Made by a program: the position numbers and the translations under genes. DNA of 64,000 nt from Dictyophora rubrovolvata (taxonomy: Eukaryota; Basidiomycota; Agaricomycetes; Phallales; Phallaceae): assembly GCA_029959195.1 (NCBI GenBank), contig CP114119.1, positions 2,666,001 through 2,730,000 of the forward strand. The letters are read 5' to 3'. Every line of letters starts with the position of its first letter. The stretch's first letter is position 1. Under the pieces are notes generated by a model. That model saw nothing but the letters and a program-made list of their open reading frames with translations, made no database searches and was not told the origin of the DNA. Below, in pieces: positions 30,634 to 59,602 of this stretch.

Positions 30634-32993
30634 ATGGTTGCAGAATTTAGGCTATCCGATTCAGAAATCCCCAAAGCCGACTTCTTTCCTCCGTCTCCCA
30701 ATCCAGATCCACCCCAGTCATCGGTCTCAAAACCAGGAATTCACGACACTCCAATGGTTTCCAAACAATCTGCAAGTGAATGTTTCACTTCGACACCTGA
30801 CGAGCGCGACCCGCGGCTGATGCTTATGGGGAACGAAGTGGTGAACAAAATCGTCGGCCCCATGCCGGTGCAAGAGTTTCTCGACGAATTCCTCCCCGTT
30901 TCAAATGCAAAGTTGCCGTCCTTGAGAACTTATCAAAATGAAATAATGAAAGTTTCGCATAGCAAGAACGAAAGGGAGATGTATAGCCCCTTTGTAAGCA
31001 CCTTCATTTAGCACCTTTCGTTCAAAACCCAATCATGGTACATAATACAGGTCAAAGCCATTCAAAGCCTATGTCGTAATTTCTCGGTTGTTGGCACGCA
31101 AGATAATCCCTTCACCGTGTTTCACAAAGTGACAATCAAACCCGACGTCTGTTTATACCCGAAGAATGACACTGGACACATTTCCAAAGTTGAATTAATG
31201 ATCGAGGCCAAATACCACAAAAGCTCTGACCCATTCGTTGATACACCCGGAAAACCTCTCATCCATGATAATGACGCCACCAGGGAGACGCTGGGACAAA
31301 TTACTTCATACGCTTCCGCTCATCAAGCCGCTCAGTTTCGCTCTTACGCTTTCTCTTTGCTTCTTCTCCCAACATACGCTAGAATACTTCGATGGGATAG
31401 ATCGGGTGTAATCGTTACGAACAAAATCCCTTTGTCATCTACGGACTTGCCTGAATTCTTTCACCGGTTCGACCGCATGACAGCAGAGCAACGGGGATTT
31501 GATCCAACAATCACCAAGCCGTCTAGTTCAGATGAGCTTCGTGCACGTCAAGTATTTCGGTTCAACGACGATGTTTGTCTTATACAACTATCGGTCGGTG
31601 ACTCGGGCTATATTGTTCCCCGAGACACGTACATGGGTGGTACACGTTCGCCACTAGGCCGATCGACACGCGCGTTTTTCGCGTATTCGCTGTCCTTGAA
31701 GAAGAAAGTGTTTCTCAAAGACACCTGGCGACTGCAATCTCAAACCGCGGAGCACGAACTTTACGCCAAACTGAAGGAGAAAAAAGTCCCTTATATAGCG
31801 ACCGTTCTCGCTGGGGGAGATGTCCTTGATCAGCAAACTCTTACACAAGACTTTGTTGAAAAAGAACTTAGTTGGGCAAAAGATCGACCGAAAAGATTGA
31901 GAAAACATTTTCACTATCGACTGGTTTTAGAGGAAATTGGAACCCCTTTGACGACGTTTTCTTCCACGAAATTGCTCGTAAAGGTTATGCACGAAGCGTT
32001 GATAGGTTCGTTTATCTTTGACAAACTCTGAGTTCATATATTTATTTTGTTTCAGCGCATAAAATGGCGTATGAGCAGGCCAATATACTTCATCGCGATA
32101 TCAGTCCGAACAACATTTTAATTTATAATGGTTCGGCGTTGCTAATAGATTGGGACTTGTCAAAGAGCCAAGAAAATATCCAGCAAGCAAGGGAGTCTGA
32201 AAGAACTGTACGTCCTTCAAATACTATATTATAACCCAGCCTGAATTCATTGAATCCTTTCATTTTATAGGGAACATGGCAATTCACGGCGGCCCGGCTT
32301 CTTAATCCTGAAACGGCTGGACCACAGACGCTTACAGACGATATTGAATCATTCGTACACGTTCTGACGTGGACAGCTTTCAGATATGCGGATCATAGAA
32401 TGGCCCAATTGGAGCTTACAGATTTCCTTCAGAGTGTTTTCGATCATTCTTTCACAGACGAAAATGGCTGCAAACGAAATGGCCGTGCCAAATCTCGATA
32501 TCTACTAGCACCGCTCGATCTTAAAGCAGCAAGATTTAAATGCACCAATCTGGTGGAGTTACTTCGCTGCCTAACTGGCGTAGTTGCCACCCGCTATCAA
32601 GACCCGCCTTCAGCGAAATCTGCCATTCAAAGGCGAGCTAAAATCGTAACACTCCAGCGCAAGAATCAACAGGTAGAAGAAGATAGAAGGCTTAAAGAAG
32701 ACCTGGAAGAATATGAGACCACATTGAACGCACTCAAGTCTTCAGATTGGATCATACGAACATTCGAGGACTTTTTAGACTTGGATGATTGGCCCGAAAA
32801 TGATGCTGCTGAGGAACATGAACTCGATAAACTTGTCTCGCGACTGAAGACGAGTACTCACGGCTCGAGCTTAAAAGTGCAATTATTTGCAAATGATCAA
32901 GATGAAGAGGACGCGAGTGATCCAGAAGAAGAATCAGAGTTAAATGGGCCCCCTGCAAAGAAAGCTCGGTTCAACACGAGCGGGAGAAGCTAA
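30634..32993 (+). CDS. FunK1-type fungal protein kinase
   Basis: Four exons (30634-30993, 31051-32005, 32056-32207, 32271-32993) give 729 residues. After a Ser/Pro-rich start comes the FunK1 N-terminal module (about residues 60-260), with a KxDVCLYP block and EAKYHKSSDPF, which resembles a nuclease-like fold in the family. The kinase core follows: the loop HRDISPNNIL has catalytic HRD at 451-453, the metal site is IDWD at 469-472 in place of DFG as usual for FunK1, and an activation-segment GTWQFTAARLL comes next. The C-terminus is acidic and ends in a KKAR basic patch, a possible nuclear signal. FunK1 kinases are expanded in multicellular basidiomycetes; substrates are unknown. The gene looks whole. 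A piece of a close relative lies at 59095-59288. Confidence 0.9.
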
Positions 32994-46100: not shown

Positions 46101-46110
46101 GACTTCTGTG
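46101..46110 (+). repeat. Left target-site duplication
   Basis: The 10-mer GACTTCTGTG stands directly outside the left inverted repeat. The identical 10-mer stands directly outside the right one, each exactly 11 bases from the strongly conserved part of the repeats. This is what an insertion with a 10-bp target duplication leaves. Confidence 0.75.
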
Positions 46111-46173
46111 AGAAAAGGCCAGCGACTGGGAAAGTGTCCCATGGGACACTGTCTCATGAGACACTTAGGCGTC
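46111..46173 (+). repeat. Left terminal inverted repeat with two nested palindromes
   Basis: The outer 11 bases are loosely matched to the other end, then the GCGACTGGG arm, then palindromes GTGTCCCATGGGACAC (46133-46148) and GTCTCATGAGAC (46151-46162), then the inner arm GGCGTC. The right end has the same parts. Confidence 0.75.
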
Positions 46174-46310
46174 TAATTTGAAAGACCGACGGCACCAGCC
46201 TCGGCTAAATTTTAACTCCGCTTTTCAAGCGTAACCCATTATCCATAATACTAATTCTAACATCTACACATTCCACACATACATCAGCTATATGCATATT
46301 GATACTCAAA

Positions 46311-46562
46311 ATGAATGACTCTGAACTTCCAATCCGTCATGTCAAATGTCTGAAATGTCCTGGTGAAATGGGAATATTTGAGGCATGTCTTGGTTCTTCC
46401 ACCCCTGAAAATAGAGGAAGGATCATGCAACGGGTTTGTTATCTTTCTCCTTAACTTCTAAGAATTTTATATTTCTGCATTATTTCATGACATTAGTGCC
46501 GGAATCGTACCTGCAATTACACAGTATTTCACAGTGCTGCTTATCCGATTGTCAACTTGTAA
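46311..46562 (+). CDS. Small GRF-like zinc-finger protein inside the mobile element
   Basis: Two exons (46311-46433, 46497-46562) give 62 residues. The spacing C-x2-C near residues 13-16, ENRGR followed by MQRC, and a last C-x4-C step with aromatic CNYTVFH match the GRF-type zinc finger found in many nucleic-acid-binding proteins, here as a stand-alone domain. GRF fingers bind single-stranded DNA in characterised cases, so a role with the element's own DNA is conceivable but unproven. Its second exon overlaps the last two exons of the CxC gene on the opposite strand. The gene starts about 140 bases inside the left inverted repeat, which may supply its promoter. Confidence 0.5.
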
Positions 46563-47512
46563 TTCAATGTGCTTGAGAAAGGAAGCGTGGAAGCCCAGTC
46601 CAGTTTAGAAGCCTCCATATTGTAAATCCGAGCACAGTTCTCAGCGGACATCCTGAAAGGTCTCAAAAGTGTGTACTAATAAATCCCAGAATAAATTATA
46701 ACGCACCATGCGAATGCCATTTGGTCCAGGAACCGTTCACAGACAGTTCTTTCGGCGAAATAGTGAGGAAGAACCTGAATGTATTTGTATCCAGCATCAT
46801 CAAATTCACAAGAGTCATAGTATGTTCTAACATCGCTCTGGACTGTATAATTGTGATAAAATCGCGTGTTACAGCCTACAAATTCATTCTTTTTAGCAAC
46901 AAACCCACGATCCTGATATAACATACCACGGCAGTATAAAGAAGTAGTAAAAACAGGAATAGGGCCATTGACTGTGGTGAATAGTACAGCTTGGTGTGTC
47001 AATGGTTCTGTTAAGTCTTGAATCGGAAGATTTTCTTGCTTGCGAGCATGGAAGTTGTTGCGGCATCCCAGTCTGTTACAGTGTCGTGTAGGAGGGAAGA
47101 AATGTATTATTGCTGTAAACAATTTTTATACCATCCTAGAACACAATTAATTATTAAGCATACCTAATTCCAATGGCAACCCATACTCCAGGAAGAGGGG
47201 AAGCATGGTTGTGAAGTCAACTAGCAGTCCTTTTCCGGCCTTTACATCGCTGCTCCAGGCAAAATCTTTCAAAGCCATCCAACAAATAGTCATAATGTCT
47301 GACTCAAGACGAAGGCAGTTACACAGAAAAGCATGGACCTTTGACAGCAGGAACAGTGGTGGTTCATTGCAAGCAGTAGATGTTTGACTGTGCGAAAGGA
47401 GTGGCTTCATTTGTTGAACAAGGGATATAAACATAAAAAGAGTGTCGGCAGAGAAAGAGAATAGAACGGGGTACTGAGCACAACGTTCATATAGTGTATT
47501 TAATGTGAGCAT
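46480..47512 (-). CDS. KDZ-transposase-associated cysteine-cluster (CxC5/CxC6-like) protein
   Basis: Five minus-strand exons (47512-47164, 47112-46927, 46875-46707, 46652-46557, 46510-46480) give 276 residues in one frame. The N-terminal 115 residues are helical and leucine-rich, as in this family. The cysteine cluster follows: HCNRLGCRN, then the landmark SLYCRGCNTRFYHNYTV (seen only when the 51-nt intron 46876-46926 is removed), then RTYYDS and a WMSAENCARIY stretch. Relatives in agaricomycetes sit beside KDZ transposases and continue with a second zinc-binding cluster that is absent here, so the copy is shortened at its C-terminus or its last exons differ. Role in transposition is suspected, not shown. 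The start lies about 75 bases inside the right inverted repeat. Confidence 0.7.
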
Positions 47513-47587
47513 GGTGTATTTGTTGGTTGTAATTGCACATAACGTGCTGTGCAACGACGCTGTCTATAGTCGGAGTCTGAACGGATT

Positions 47588-47648
47588 GACGCCCGTGTCC
47601 CATGGGACAATGTCTCATGAGACACTTCCCCAGTCGCGGTCGTTTCGT
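47588..47648 (-). repeat. Right terminal inverted repeat with two nested palindromes
   Basis: Mirror of the left end in its arms: CCCAGTCGC at 47629-47637 and GACGCC at 47588-47593. The palindromic core between the arms reads the same way on the plus strand as the left core, with GTGTCCCATGGGACA first and GTCTCATGAGAC second. Confidence 0.75.
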
Positions 47649-47658
47649 GACTTCTGTG
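47649..47658 (+). repeat. Right target-site duplication
   Basis: GACTTCTGTG, identical to 46101-46110. It lies 160 bases before the start codon of the fasciclin protein gene. Confidence 0.75.
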
Positions 47659-47818: not shown

Positions 47819-50800
47819 ATGCGCCTGTCGCTACCCGTTGCTCTCCTCGCTCTTCTCACCACAGTTCTTGCTGAAGTCCCCAGTCAGGATCAAACCCAGC
47901 GTCAGCAATATCAACGGCCCTTCACAGCCAGCAATAGGGAGTCCCACCATGCACAACAATCTTCTCGTCCCTCGCATTCCTTCCAGCCCTCCACAACATC
48001 GACAACGCTAGTTGACGCTCTTTCGGCAGATGGCAATTACACACGGCTGCTTCAACTACTGCAAAAAGCACGTCTTATCCCAACGCTCAACAGTCTAAAC
48101 GACACAACACTCTTCGCGCCGACAAATGACGCAATTGAAAAGGATGCTTTGCTTAGCATGGAGAGTGAAGTGGGAGAAGATGATTATGCTTTCGAAGCCA
48201 ATGACTTCCTATCGAACTCCGAACCGAAAGATAATATCAACGAAAAGCTTCGACAACAGTTGTTATATCATCTTCTGCACACGAGGCTGCAAGAATTGCC
48301 GAAAGAACTTAAGACCCATAACACATATTTATACCCTCGACCAATATCTTTGGATGTCCCTTCAACGCCCCCGTGGATACCTGTTCCTGGTGGGACACTA
48401 GGTGGCGAACCGCAGCGCATACGTGTTTCGGCGGGCGATGACAAGACCTATGTCGCCACTGACTACGAAGGCAAAGGAGGCATCGAAATCATACGCCCAC
48501 TGGTAAAAGCCGACAATGGCGTATTAATTGGTATTGCAGATGTCATCCAACCCCCTCCAAATCTCAGTGAGTGAAATCAAAATTCACCTTTATCTGATCA
48601 AAATGCTTTAACTAAACCACGATAAATTTCCCAGTGGAACTAGTGGAATCTTACGAACCATTATCATATTTCAAGAAAATTCTATCTGACAAATTACGAG
48701 CGGAAATTCAAGACAGTTCTGCGTTAACGTTGTTTCTCCCTCAGGCTTCGGCATGGGAATCATTAGACGAGGTCGAAAGGCTATATCTCGAAAGTGAATA
48801 TTCCGATGATGACGTTAGCAAAATCTTAGACATGCATACCGTCAAAAAAGGAAAAAAGGACAAAACGCCTGTGGGATGGTCGGATACATGGGTGAATAAT
48901 ACTAACTGTAAGCCTTTTGATCCGTATCAGGATGAGACGGATGCAAATTTATATATATATTAAAAACATGCAGTAACGACCGTTTTTGGAGACAAGCTGG
49001 ACATTATAATTTCTCCCGATTCAAAAACTACCATTTCTGGAGCTGAGCTCCTCCATCCAGATATCTATGCTTCAAATGGGGTCTTGCACCTAGTGTCATC
49101 GTTACTCATACCCCCAGACGCTCTCACGCTTACAGCTGAAAAGCATCTACTCGCTCTCAATTGCACTAATTTCGTCACACTTCTCAGATCCGTTTCATTA
49201 TCCAGTTTAGTAAATGACACAAAGGCGTCATATACAATCTTAGCTCCTCGGAACGATGTTCTAACCTTACATACTGACCAACCCCCGTTTCCTCCCGAAG
49301 GAACCGAAGACCTAGCAAGATATTTGAAATATCATTTTTTGCCTGGTAAATGGACGCGAGAAAATTTGCGCGATGGTATGCTTGTTGAAACTGCTCTGGA
49401 CGAAGCCGAGCTTTCTGGGAATCTTCAAGTTCTGAGCGTCGGTGTTGCTCCTGAAACTAAAGCTCTTTCCTTTGGTGGTGCAGGCGTGAGTGGTGAAAAC
49501 CCCAGTGGGTATTCTCATCCTTTTTTCTAGAAATTTTTTGAATTAACAACATAGACTCTTAGTCGAAATCAAGAATAATATTATTTATTTTATCACAAAA
49601 CCTCTCGCTCCTCCTGAAGACGTCTGGAAAACTGCATTGCCTTCCTTACAGTTCTCGACATTCATTGCTACAGTATTTTCCACTTCCTTAGCCGAAACAC
49701 TCAAAACCGCCCATGCGACTACATTCTTCATCCCTCAGAATAAGGCATTTGAACGACTAGGACTAGTTGCTAAATATCTTCTTGGGACTACCAATCGCGC
49801 CAAACGAGACCTTGAGCAAGTGATTCTGCATCATGTCGTTGATGGAATAGAATATTCTCGTGCATTGCTCAAGGGAACTCAGAAAACTTATCCTACCCTT
49901 GAAGGCTCGGATTTACACGCCACTAGACCTGATGATGGCTCGTTGCAAATATTCCCGAGTGGTGGATGGAGTAATTTGCGGGCCAACTTCGTCGGGGGAA
50001 ACACGAATGAGAACGGTAATGGAGGCGGGAAGAAATTTGCGAGTCTCGTTAACGACTATTTGGCTACTCCAAATTCTGGAGTAGCGGATTTATTAACCCG
50101 TACTGGCGTGATTCACGAAATTGATGCGGTACTTCTTCCACGAAGTGTAGATATCACACTGGCGAAGCTAGCTGATGCGGCTGATGGGAGTACAATGACG
50201 GGATTAGTGACCAAAGCTGGACTAGGATGGATTCTGAACGGCACGAAACCCCTCGCGGATGCGGTTTTTGATGAGTGGAATGAGTATTTGAGGTGGAGAA
50301 CTCCCGATGAGACTATTAATAATGGACGGCGAAGACAACGACAGCAAGGTGTCGTGTTGGATGATGTTGTTGGTTGGGTATTTTTGTGTCCCACAGAGAC
50401 TGCGTTTAAAGGAGTCAATATGACCCGGCTTTTGGCTGATACTATGGCGACGAAAAGACTGGTTGCGCAGCATTTGATTCCTATTGTTGTTCCACCCTCG
50501 AAACCTAAGCCTTCGTCGTGGTTTTCGTCTATTCCAACCATGAGGTCGTCAAGTTCGTTTTCGTTTTCGTCGTCGTCGTCATCATCATCATCTTCGCCTT
50601 CGGATATCTACAAACCCATCGGACTCGATGATAAAGCGACATATTCTACCGTTCTTTCCCAATCATCGCTCTATGGCGATATCACCTTCCGACCTGTAGA
50701 TGAGAATGACAAAAGTAAAGGGTACATCGTAGGAATCAAGGACGCGCGTGGAACGAATGGCGCGAATGACTGGGCAAATGTCTTAGCGTGGGGTCGCAGT

Positions 50801-59094: not shown

Positions 59095-59288
59095 TCGCTT
59101 CTTGCTGTTTATGTGCCATTTATGCGCTGTAACAAAATAAATTGCCAAAAATAAACAAACGAACCTATAAGGCATCGTGCATAACCTTTACAAGCAATTT
59201 CGCGGAAGAAAACGTCGTCAAAGGGGTTCCGATTTTTCGATAATGAAAATCTTTTCTCAATCTTTTCGGCCGATCTTTTGCGCAGCTT
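59095..59288 (-). pseudogene. Fragment copied from a FunK1 kinase gene, intron included
   Basis: On the minus strand this stretch matches the kinase gene at about 31871-32094 at both DNA and protein level: AKDRPKRLRKDFHYR and GTPLTTFSSAKLLVKVMHDAL differ from the intact gene by few residues, and four codons (VLEE region) are missing. The match goes on through a shortened version of the following intron and into the start of the next exon (GCGCATAAA), so the copy arose from DNA, not from mRNA. No rest of a kinase is found on either side, so it is a gene fragment without coding ability. Confidence 0.8.
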
Positions 59289-59602
59289 TGATCTTTTTTA
59301 AAAAAGTAAAAGACATTACAGTAAGAGACTAAGAGACATTGGGACAGTGGGGACATCGATAAAGGCGTGCCTTTCCTCTTCCTGCTCTCAGAAATAATAT
59401 CACCGGTTAAAAGGAGCTATACCCACCATTACTTCACAAGTAAGAGATTAGTAGCCCGTCATGATTAGCAGTAATTGAAACGACTGACCGCTCTGCGGAG
59501 CCGCGTCTTCCATCGTCTTCAGGTCATCCGAAGATATCCTTCCGACAGACTTTCTCTAAAAACGGGTCATTCATTGTTGACAGACAAGAATGTTATCGAA
59601 TA

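Follow-up and report, generated by a model that had tools for sequence, protein, structure and literature searches.

In the genome of Dictyophora rubrovolvata, a unit of about 1.5 kb bounded by inverted repeats encloses a gene for a cysteine-cluster (CxC) protein. A preliminary description made from the sequence alone took the unit for a CxC gene packaged, as a passenger, in a small mobile unit of its own that is flanked by a 10-bp duplication. The question raised by the locus is therefore whether this gene travels by itself or belongs to something larger, and, if so, which protein moves it. We examined the window (the whole stretch of DNA analysed here, 64 kb in length) together with the genome from which it comes. 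CxC names are used throughout; they reportedly originate with Iyer et al. 2014.

We conclude, with a probability of roughly 0.85, that a 5.2-kb DNA transposon of the cut-and-paste type gave rise to the unit by internal deletion, leaving it non-autonomous; the transposon makes 8-bp duplications, and its putative transposase is a CxC5-CxC6 protein. The features of the window on which this reading is based are collected in Table 1.

Table 1. Features of the window copy and its surroundings (window coordinates)
Feature	Position	Strand	Remarks
Left target-site duplication	46102..46109	.	ACTTCTGT, 8 bp, identical to 47650-47657
Internal-deletion derivative of 5.2-kb CxC5/CxC6 element	46110..47649	.	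1540 bp
Left terminal inverted repeat, imperfect	46110..46163	.	subterminal palindromes 46135-46148 and 46150-46163
5' fragment of second gene	46311..46550	+	RTC4-like domain in deleted part
Truncated exon 3, CxC5-CxC6 gene	46541..46652	-	frame crosses junction into stop
Deletion junction	46550..46550	.	parent 1-441 joined to last 1100 bases, one base common
Exon 2, CxC5-CxC6 gene, most of CxC5 domain	46707..47112	-	PF18718, E 4.4e-21 on frame 46676-47125
Exon 1, CxC5-CxC6 gene	47164..47512	-	start codon 47512; GT-AG model of L019 mapped to window
Right terminal inverted repeat	47596..47649	.	palindromes 47596-47609 and 47611-47624, same as left pair
Right target-site duplication	47650..47657	.	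ACTTCTGT, 8 bp
Host FAS1 (fasciclin) protein gene	47819..48574	+	PF02469, E 1.5e-11

Copies in the genome and the ends of the element

The genome search covered 28.2 Mb in 11 contigs, the window included, and the repeat counts that it yields are lower bounds. A query of 99 bases from the left end gave 16 matches: nine are left ends (the window's own among them) and the remaining seven are to the palindromic part of right ends. Eight of the nine left ends match at 99-100% identity and one at 90%. Seven are paired with a right end; the other two are a diverged copy on contig C8 and a truncated copy on C4, which has an internal deletion and stops inside the element, with no further match over the next 5.5 kb.

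The preliminary description had proposed looking for other copies with other duplications, and these are indeed present. All seven complete copies, including that of the window, are flanked by perfect 8-bp duplications, and the seven duplications (ACTTCTGT, GATTTGGT, CATTTCCT, CCGAACCC, GTTGTATG, ATTGGCAC and CATGCCAG) differ from one another. When these same-genome copies are aligned, they start GAGAAAAGGCC and finish GGTCGTTTCGTG, with an 8-bp direct repeat adjoining each side, and the tips have G as first and last base (GAGAAAAGG...TTTCGTG) in seven of seven cases.

Because seven aligned copies fix the ends of the element, the duplication is 8 bp rather than 10 bp, and a 10-bp duplication is ruled out. 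An identical 10-mer does lie at both ends, as first reported (GACTTCTGTG, with two occurrences in the window, at 46101-46110 and 47649-47658), but only its inner 8 bp are duplication; its outer G's are the element tip at one copy of the 10-mer and a chance match at the other. The proposal that the duplication is longer than the 8 bp usual for KDZ and hAT elements is thus contradicted by every complete copy. The 1.54-kb mobile unit with a target-site duplication on both sides holds up, as do its inverted terminal repeats, which had been put at about 60 bp; the arms comprise 51 nt, are 82% complementary and lie just inside the 10-mer copies. The two subterminal palindromes have the same left-to-right order at both ends of the element.

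When the flanks of the window copy were joined and compared with this genome, only their own two halves matched, and therefore no paralogous empty site was found in it. Five older relatives, 76-87% identical, came up in a query with the right end; three of them retain the tip CCCAGTCGC.GTCGTTTCGT, and a fourth has it slightly altered. By a crude test, none of the four old relatives examined has an 8-bp duplication fitting an element end; the test gave two chance-like 8-mers at shifted positions, and for one relative (L070) the anchor was off its true tip. Two old right ends on C8, L072 (C8:771566) and L073 (C8:794643), share 40 bases beyond the end, as in a segmental duplication with its parts about 23 kb apart.

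The window copy as a deletion derivative

The seven complete copies measure 1540 (window), 5278, 5230, 5231, 1498, 1498 and 464 bp. Three of them, designated L017, L018 and L019, are full-length (5.23-5.28 kb). The window copy is composed of full-length positions 1-441 and the last 1100 bases, with one shared base, and over its 1540 bases it has one mismatch to L018 and two each to L017 and L019. This copy retains both parental ends, is nearly identical to the parent in sequence, has an internal gap and carries a duplication of its own.

At least three different internal-deletion forms exist, the 464-bp and 1498-bp forms having other deletion points than the window copy. The two copies of 1498 bp do not differ at any of their 1498 bases, yet their duplications are different; a deleted form has therefore moved. 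The near-identity of the copies suggests that the transposon was recently active. As the short copies keep both ends, full-length copies could move them in trans, and the window copy may retain the N-terminal part of the transposase gene merely through the position of its deletion.

Genes of the full-length element

In L019, the minus strand holds six exons, with five GT-AG introns of 48-54 bp between them, that join, by inferred splicing (a model), into one frame of 687 aa. The same 687-aa protein is predicted from L017, that of L018 has two substitutions, and the frame is uninterrupted in each of these three full-length copies. The spliced protein matches CxC5 at residues 117-264 (E 1.5e-25) and CxC6 at residues 368-431 (E 3.1e-23), both over the Pfam cut-offs; at E values up to 10, CxC5 and CxC6 are its only Pfam matches and no transposase domain is among them.

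In the window copy this frame is cut after about 286 of the 687 residues, and the predicted product has 288 aa, the last two of which come from beyond the junction. Of the 'CxC5/CxC6-like' gene named in the preliminary description, the CxC5 part is confirmed (PF18718, Table 1), whereas CxC6 falls in the deleted part. The statement that the unit holds no transposase agrees with a scan of three reading-frame pieces, which gave 0 transposase-domain matches. A search of the genome for CxC5 led to four places only: the window copy and each of L017, L018 and L019. Neither the 464-bp nor the 1498-bp form has a CxC5 match.

The full-length element has a second gene, which lies on the plus strand, convergent with the first, and encodes a Cys-rich protein with an RTC4-like domain in its last part. 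The domain match is to the last open stretch of the gene (E 5.2e-6). Our model of the gene covers the first 656 residues, the last exon with the RTC4-like domain being separate, and this 656-residue part has no Pfam match. Compared with L019, the longest full-length copy (L017) has one substitution, a one-base difference in an A run and a 48-bp insertion, the last falling in the stretch of the second gene that is rich in Ser, Thr and Gln.

Which protein moves the element

The best transposase candidate is the CxC5-CxC6 protein, both by elimination and on a D...D...E-like pattern that was picked out by eye in two families. Of the two proteins of the element it is the better candidate for two reasons: every full-length copy has its frame open, and a CxC5/CxC6 ORF is the only ORF named for an insert in the Pleurotus gene poMSH4. 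The second family in which the pattern was read is degenerate (C2:1274478-1277035); it has a CxC6 match and a similar C-terminal core, with 38% identity over 97 residues. Residues kept between the two families, as judged by eye, are an Asp in VVVDG/AIMDG, an Asp in HDNNC/YDKTC, a Glu in AEQVNSW/AEQFNAW and an FC...CNP cluster. In such a protein the zinc clusters and the N-terminal part might read the tips or the subterminal palindromes, and the C-terminal core would cut and join.

We give even odds to the possibility that the element is KDZ proper, its CxC5-CxC6 protein being a diverged KDZ transposase with the first catalytic Asp at the start of CxC6. Pfam labels both CxC5 and CxC6 as KDZ-transposase-associated, and duplications of 8 bp are reported for Zisupton and a Dileera element (PMC12730594) and for KDZ1 of Cryptococcus, with 4-8 bp for KDZ2 and KDZ3 (PMC12810828). 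The order D, D..C, FH..H..C, E is also alike by eye in both proteins, the KDZ pieces of the same genome having IAIDGN, YDIGC, FH..H..C and CEQ. On the other hand, the KDZ domain (PF18758) is absent from the 687-aa protein at E values up to 10, and none of the six matches to it listed in the genome falls within the element. KDZ-domain matches lie at C5:453035, C9:654126, C4:2786501 and C10:1418776; some pieces of the C5, C9 and C4 matches contain stops, and the piece on C4 is less than 1 kb from the contig end.

Alignment scores also stand against KDZ membership, as they remain inside the shuffled range. With hhalign, the core scored 12.4 (two sequences) and 16.1 (one sequence) against KDZ copies of its own genome, in shallow alignments, where 60 shuffles of the one sequence had a mean of 14.3 and a maximum of 23.7. 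Smith-Waterman comparisons used three matrices on each of three KDZ pieces; in all nine, between 226 and 924 of 1000 shuffles equalled or exceeded the observed score. Fold predictions for single exons, made without alignment, had mean pLDDT values of 34.9 and 40.3 and were unusable. Since the tests of resemblance to KDZ failed and the folds could not be used, the transposase role is one that we infer, and membership in KDZ is not established. By sequence, the 171-aa core had no match in the PDB (best E 0.72). Searches for relatives gave 16 pattern matches for exon 5 and 81 for the whole protein in viral_contigs, and 31 for the whole protein in genome_contigs, none of which was confirmed.

At somewhat under even odds, we put forward that CxC5/CxC6 proteins are not KDZ companions but the transposases of a two-gene fungal DNA transposon group of their own. 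The inverted repeats of such a group would be short and imperfect, its subterminal palindromes would be paired and follow one order at both ends, and its duplications would be of 8 bp; besides the transposase gene it would carry a convergent partner gene of the RTC4-like kind, and in the catalytic domain the zinc cluster CxC6 would be set between the first and second acidic residue.

We consider it unlikely that the transposase is instead the product of the second, RTC4-like gene, with the CxC5-CxC6 protein in an accessory role. The L018 version of the second gene does have an open frame, both over the 656 modelled residues and over the RTC4-like stretch; however, the modelled part is interrupted in L019, with one of these interruptions common to L017, whereas the CxC5-CxC6 frame is open in every full-length copy. 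One more RTC4 match lies in the genome beyond the element, and no such gene figures in the description of the Pleurotus insert (PMC7641404). The second gene could nevertheless be catalytic, or be required as well.

Truncated P-element proteins act as repressors of their element, and by analogy the truncated 288-aa CxC5 product might repress the element here, which we consider quite improbable. Its start codon, first two introns and CxC5 exon are intact; however, it occurs as a single copy, which, with one difference in 1540, is too young for a selection test.

That a passenger CxC gene has been packaged into a small mobile unit of its own, flanked by a 10-bp duplication, is hardly tenable, and we rejected this reading. 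It is true that the two ends, a duplication and a CxC5 domain are all there. However, the gene is truncated in the unit, whereas a 5.2-kb element whose ends are identical holds it complete; CxC5 is confined to the full-length copies and the window copy; two other deletion forms of that element share the ends but have no CxC5 match; and the duplication is 8 bp.

Neighbourhood of the element

The end of the element (47649) is 169 bp upstream of the start codon of the FAS1 gene, and the element could affect the promoter or 5' leader of that gene. Elsewhere in the window, an inverted pair (31850-32000 and 59169-59307) is 81% alike and was found at only these two places in the genome search; its members are perhaps parts of two paralogous genes.

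Significance and comparison with known systems

Taken by itself, the window copy is ordinary. More useful is the family behind it, which may represent a distinct group of CxC5/CxC6 transposons. Cleanly bounded, near-identical copies with 8-bp duplications provide a means of annotating CxC5/CxC6 elements. With this bounded set, the origin of the sporeless mutation of the oyster mushroom can also be tested simply. If CxC5/CxC6 elements are a transposon group of their own, the CxC5/CxC6 insertion behind that mutation would be an ordinary transposition of such an element.

In sporeless Pleurotus ostreatus, an insert of 6,792 bp (6.8 kb) is reported in poMSH4; its only named ORF is a CxC5/CxC6 ORF of 739 aa, no KDZ gene is reported within the expected distance, and the authors tentatively suggest that a Copia retrotransposon was possibly involved (PMC7641404). 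The same source gives 44 and nearly 60 CxC5/CxC6 regions, complete or truncated, in two P. ostreatus genomes. Compared by description only, the insert and our element are alike as repeated DNA units with several copies and a CxC5/CxC6 ORF (687 aa here); they differ in length and in that no second gene is named in the description of the insert. The words 'inverted repeat' and 'duplication' are absent from the main text of that paper (PMC7641404), whereas the element here has both features. Among the matches listed, the mushroom literature on CxC5 or CxC6 concerns the sporeless Pleurotus variety only, and the matches listed in the CxC5/CxC6 and KDZ literature include no description of a CxC5/CxC6 element with defined ends and duplications. 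For RTC4, no title among the matches listed ties it to a transposon.

With the KDZ superfamily (Kyakuja, Dileera, Zisupton) the element shares the 8-bp duplication, in all seven complete copies, and CxC domains, but PF18758 is missing. A further CxC domain, the CxC7 of Zisupton, is reported to have been captured by fish F-box genes (PMC12062965). Cryptococcus KDZ1-3 likewise have terminal inverted repeats, 8-bp duplications (KDZ1) and a CxC zinc-binding domain in the presumed transposase. They are about 9-11 kb long, with inverted repeats of 139-241 bp and putative transposases that carry CxC1 and a recognisable KDZ domain (PMC12810828); the element here, by contrast, is 5.2 kb long, its repeats are short and imperfect, its CxC domains are CxC5 and CxC6, and PF18758 finds no match in it.

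Duplications of 8 bp are also usual for hAT elements (PMC12730594). Our element resembles these in its 8-bp duplications and short inverted repeats, but its 687-aa protein has no hAT transposase or dimerisation domain (Pfam, E up to 10). Maize Ds and short P elements, which belong to other superfamilies, have kept their ends and lost their middle, with varied deletion points, and are mobile in trans. The short copies described here are like them in having both ends and different deletion points, and they would probably be mobile in trans as well.
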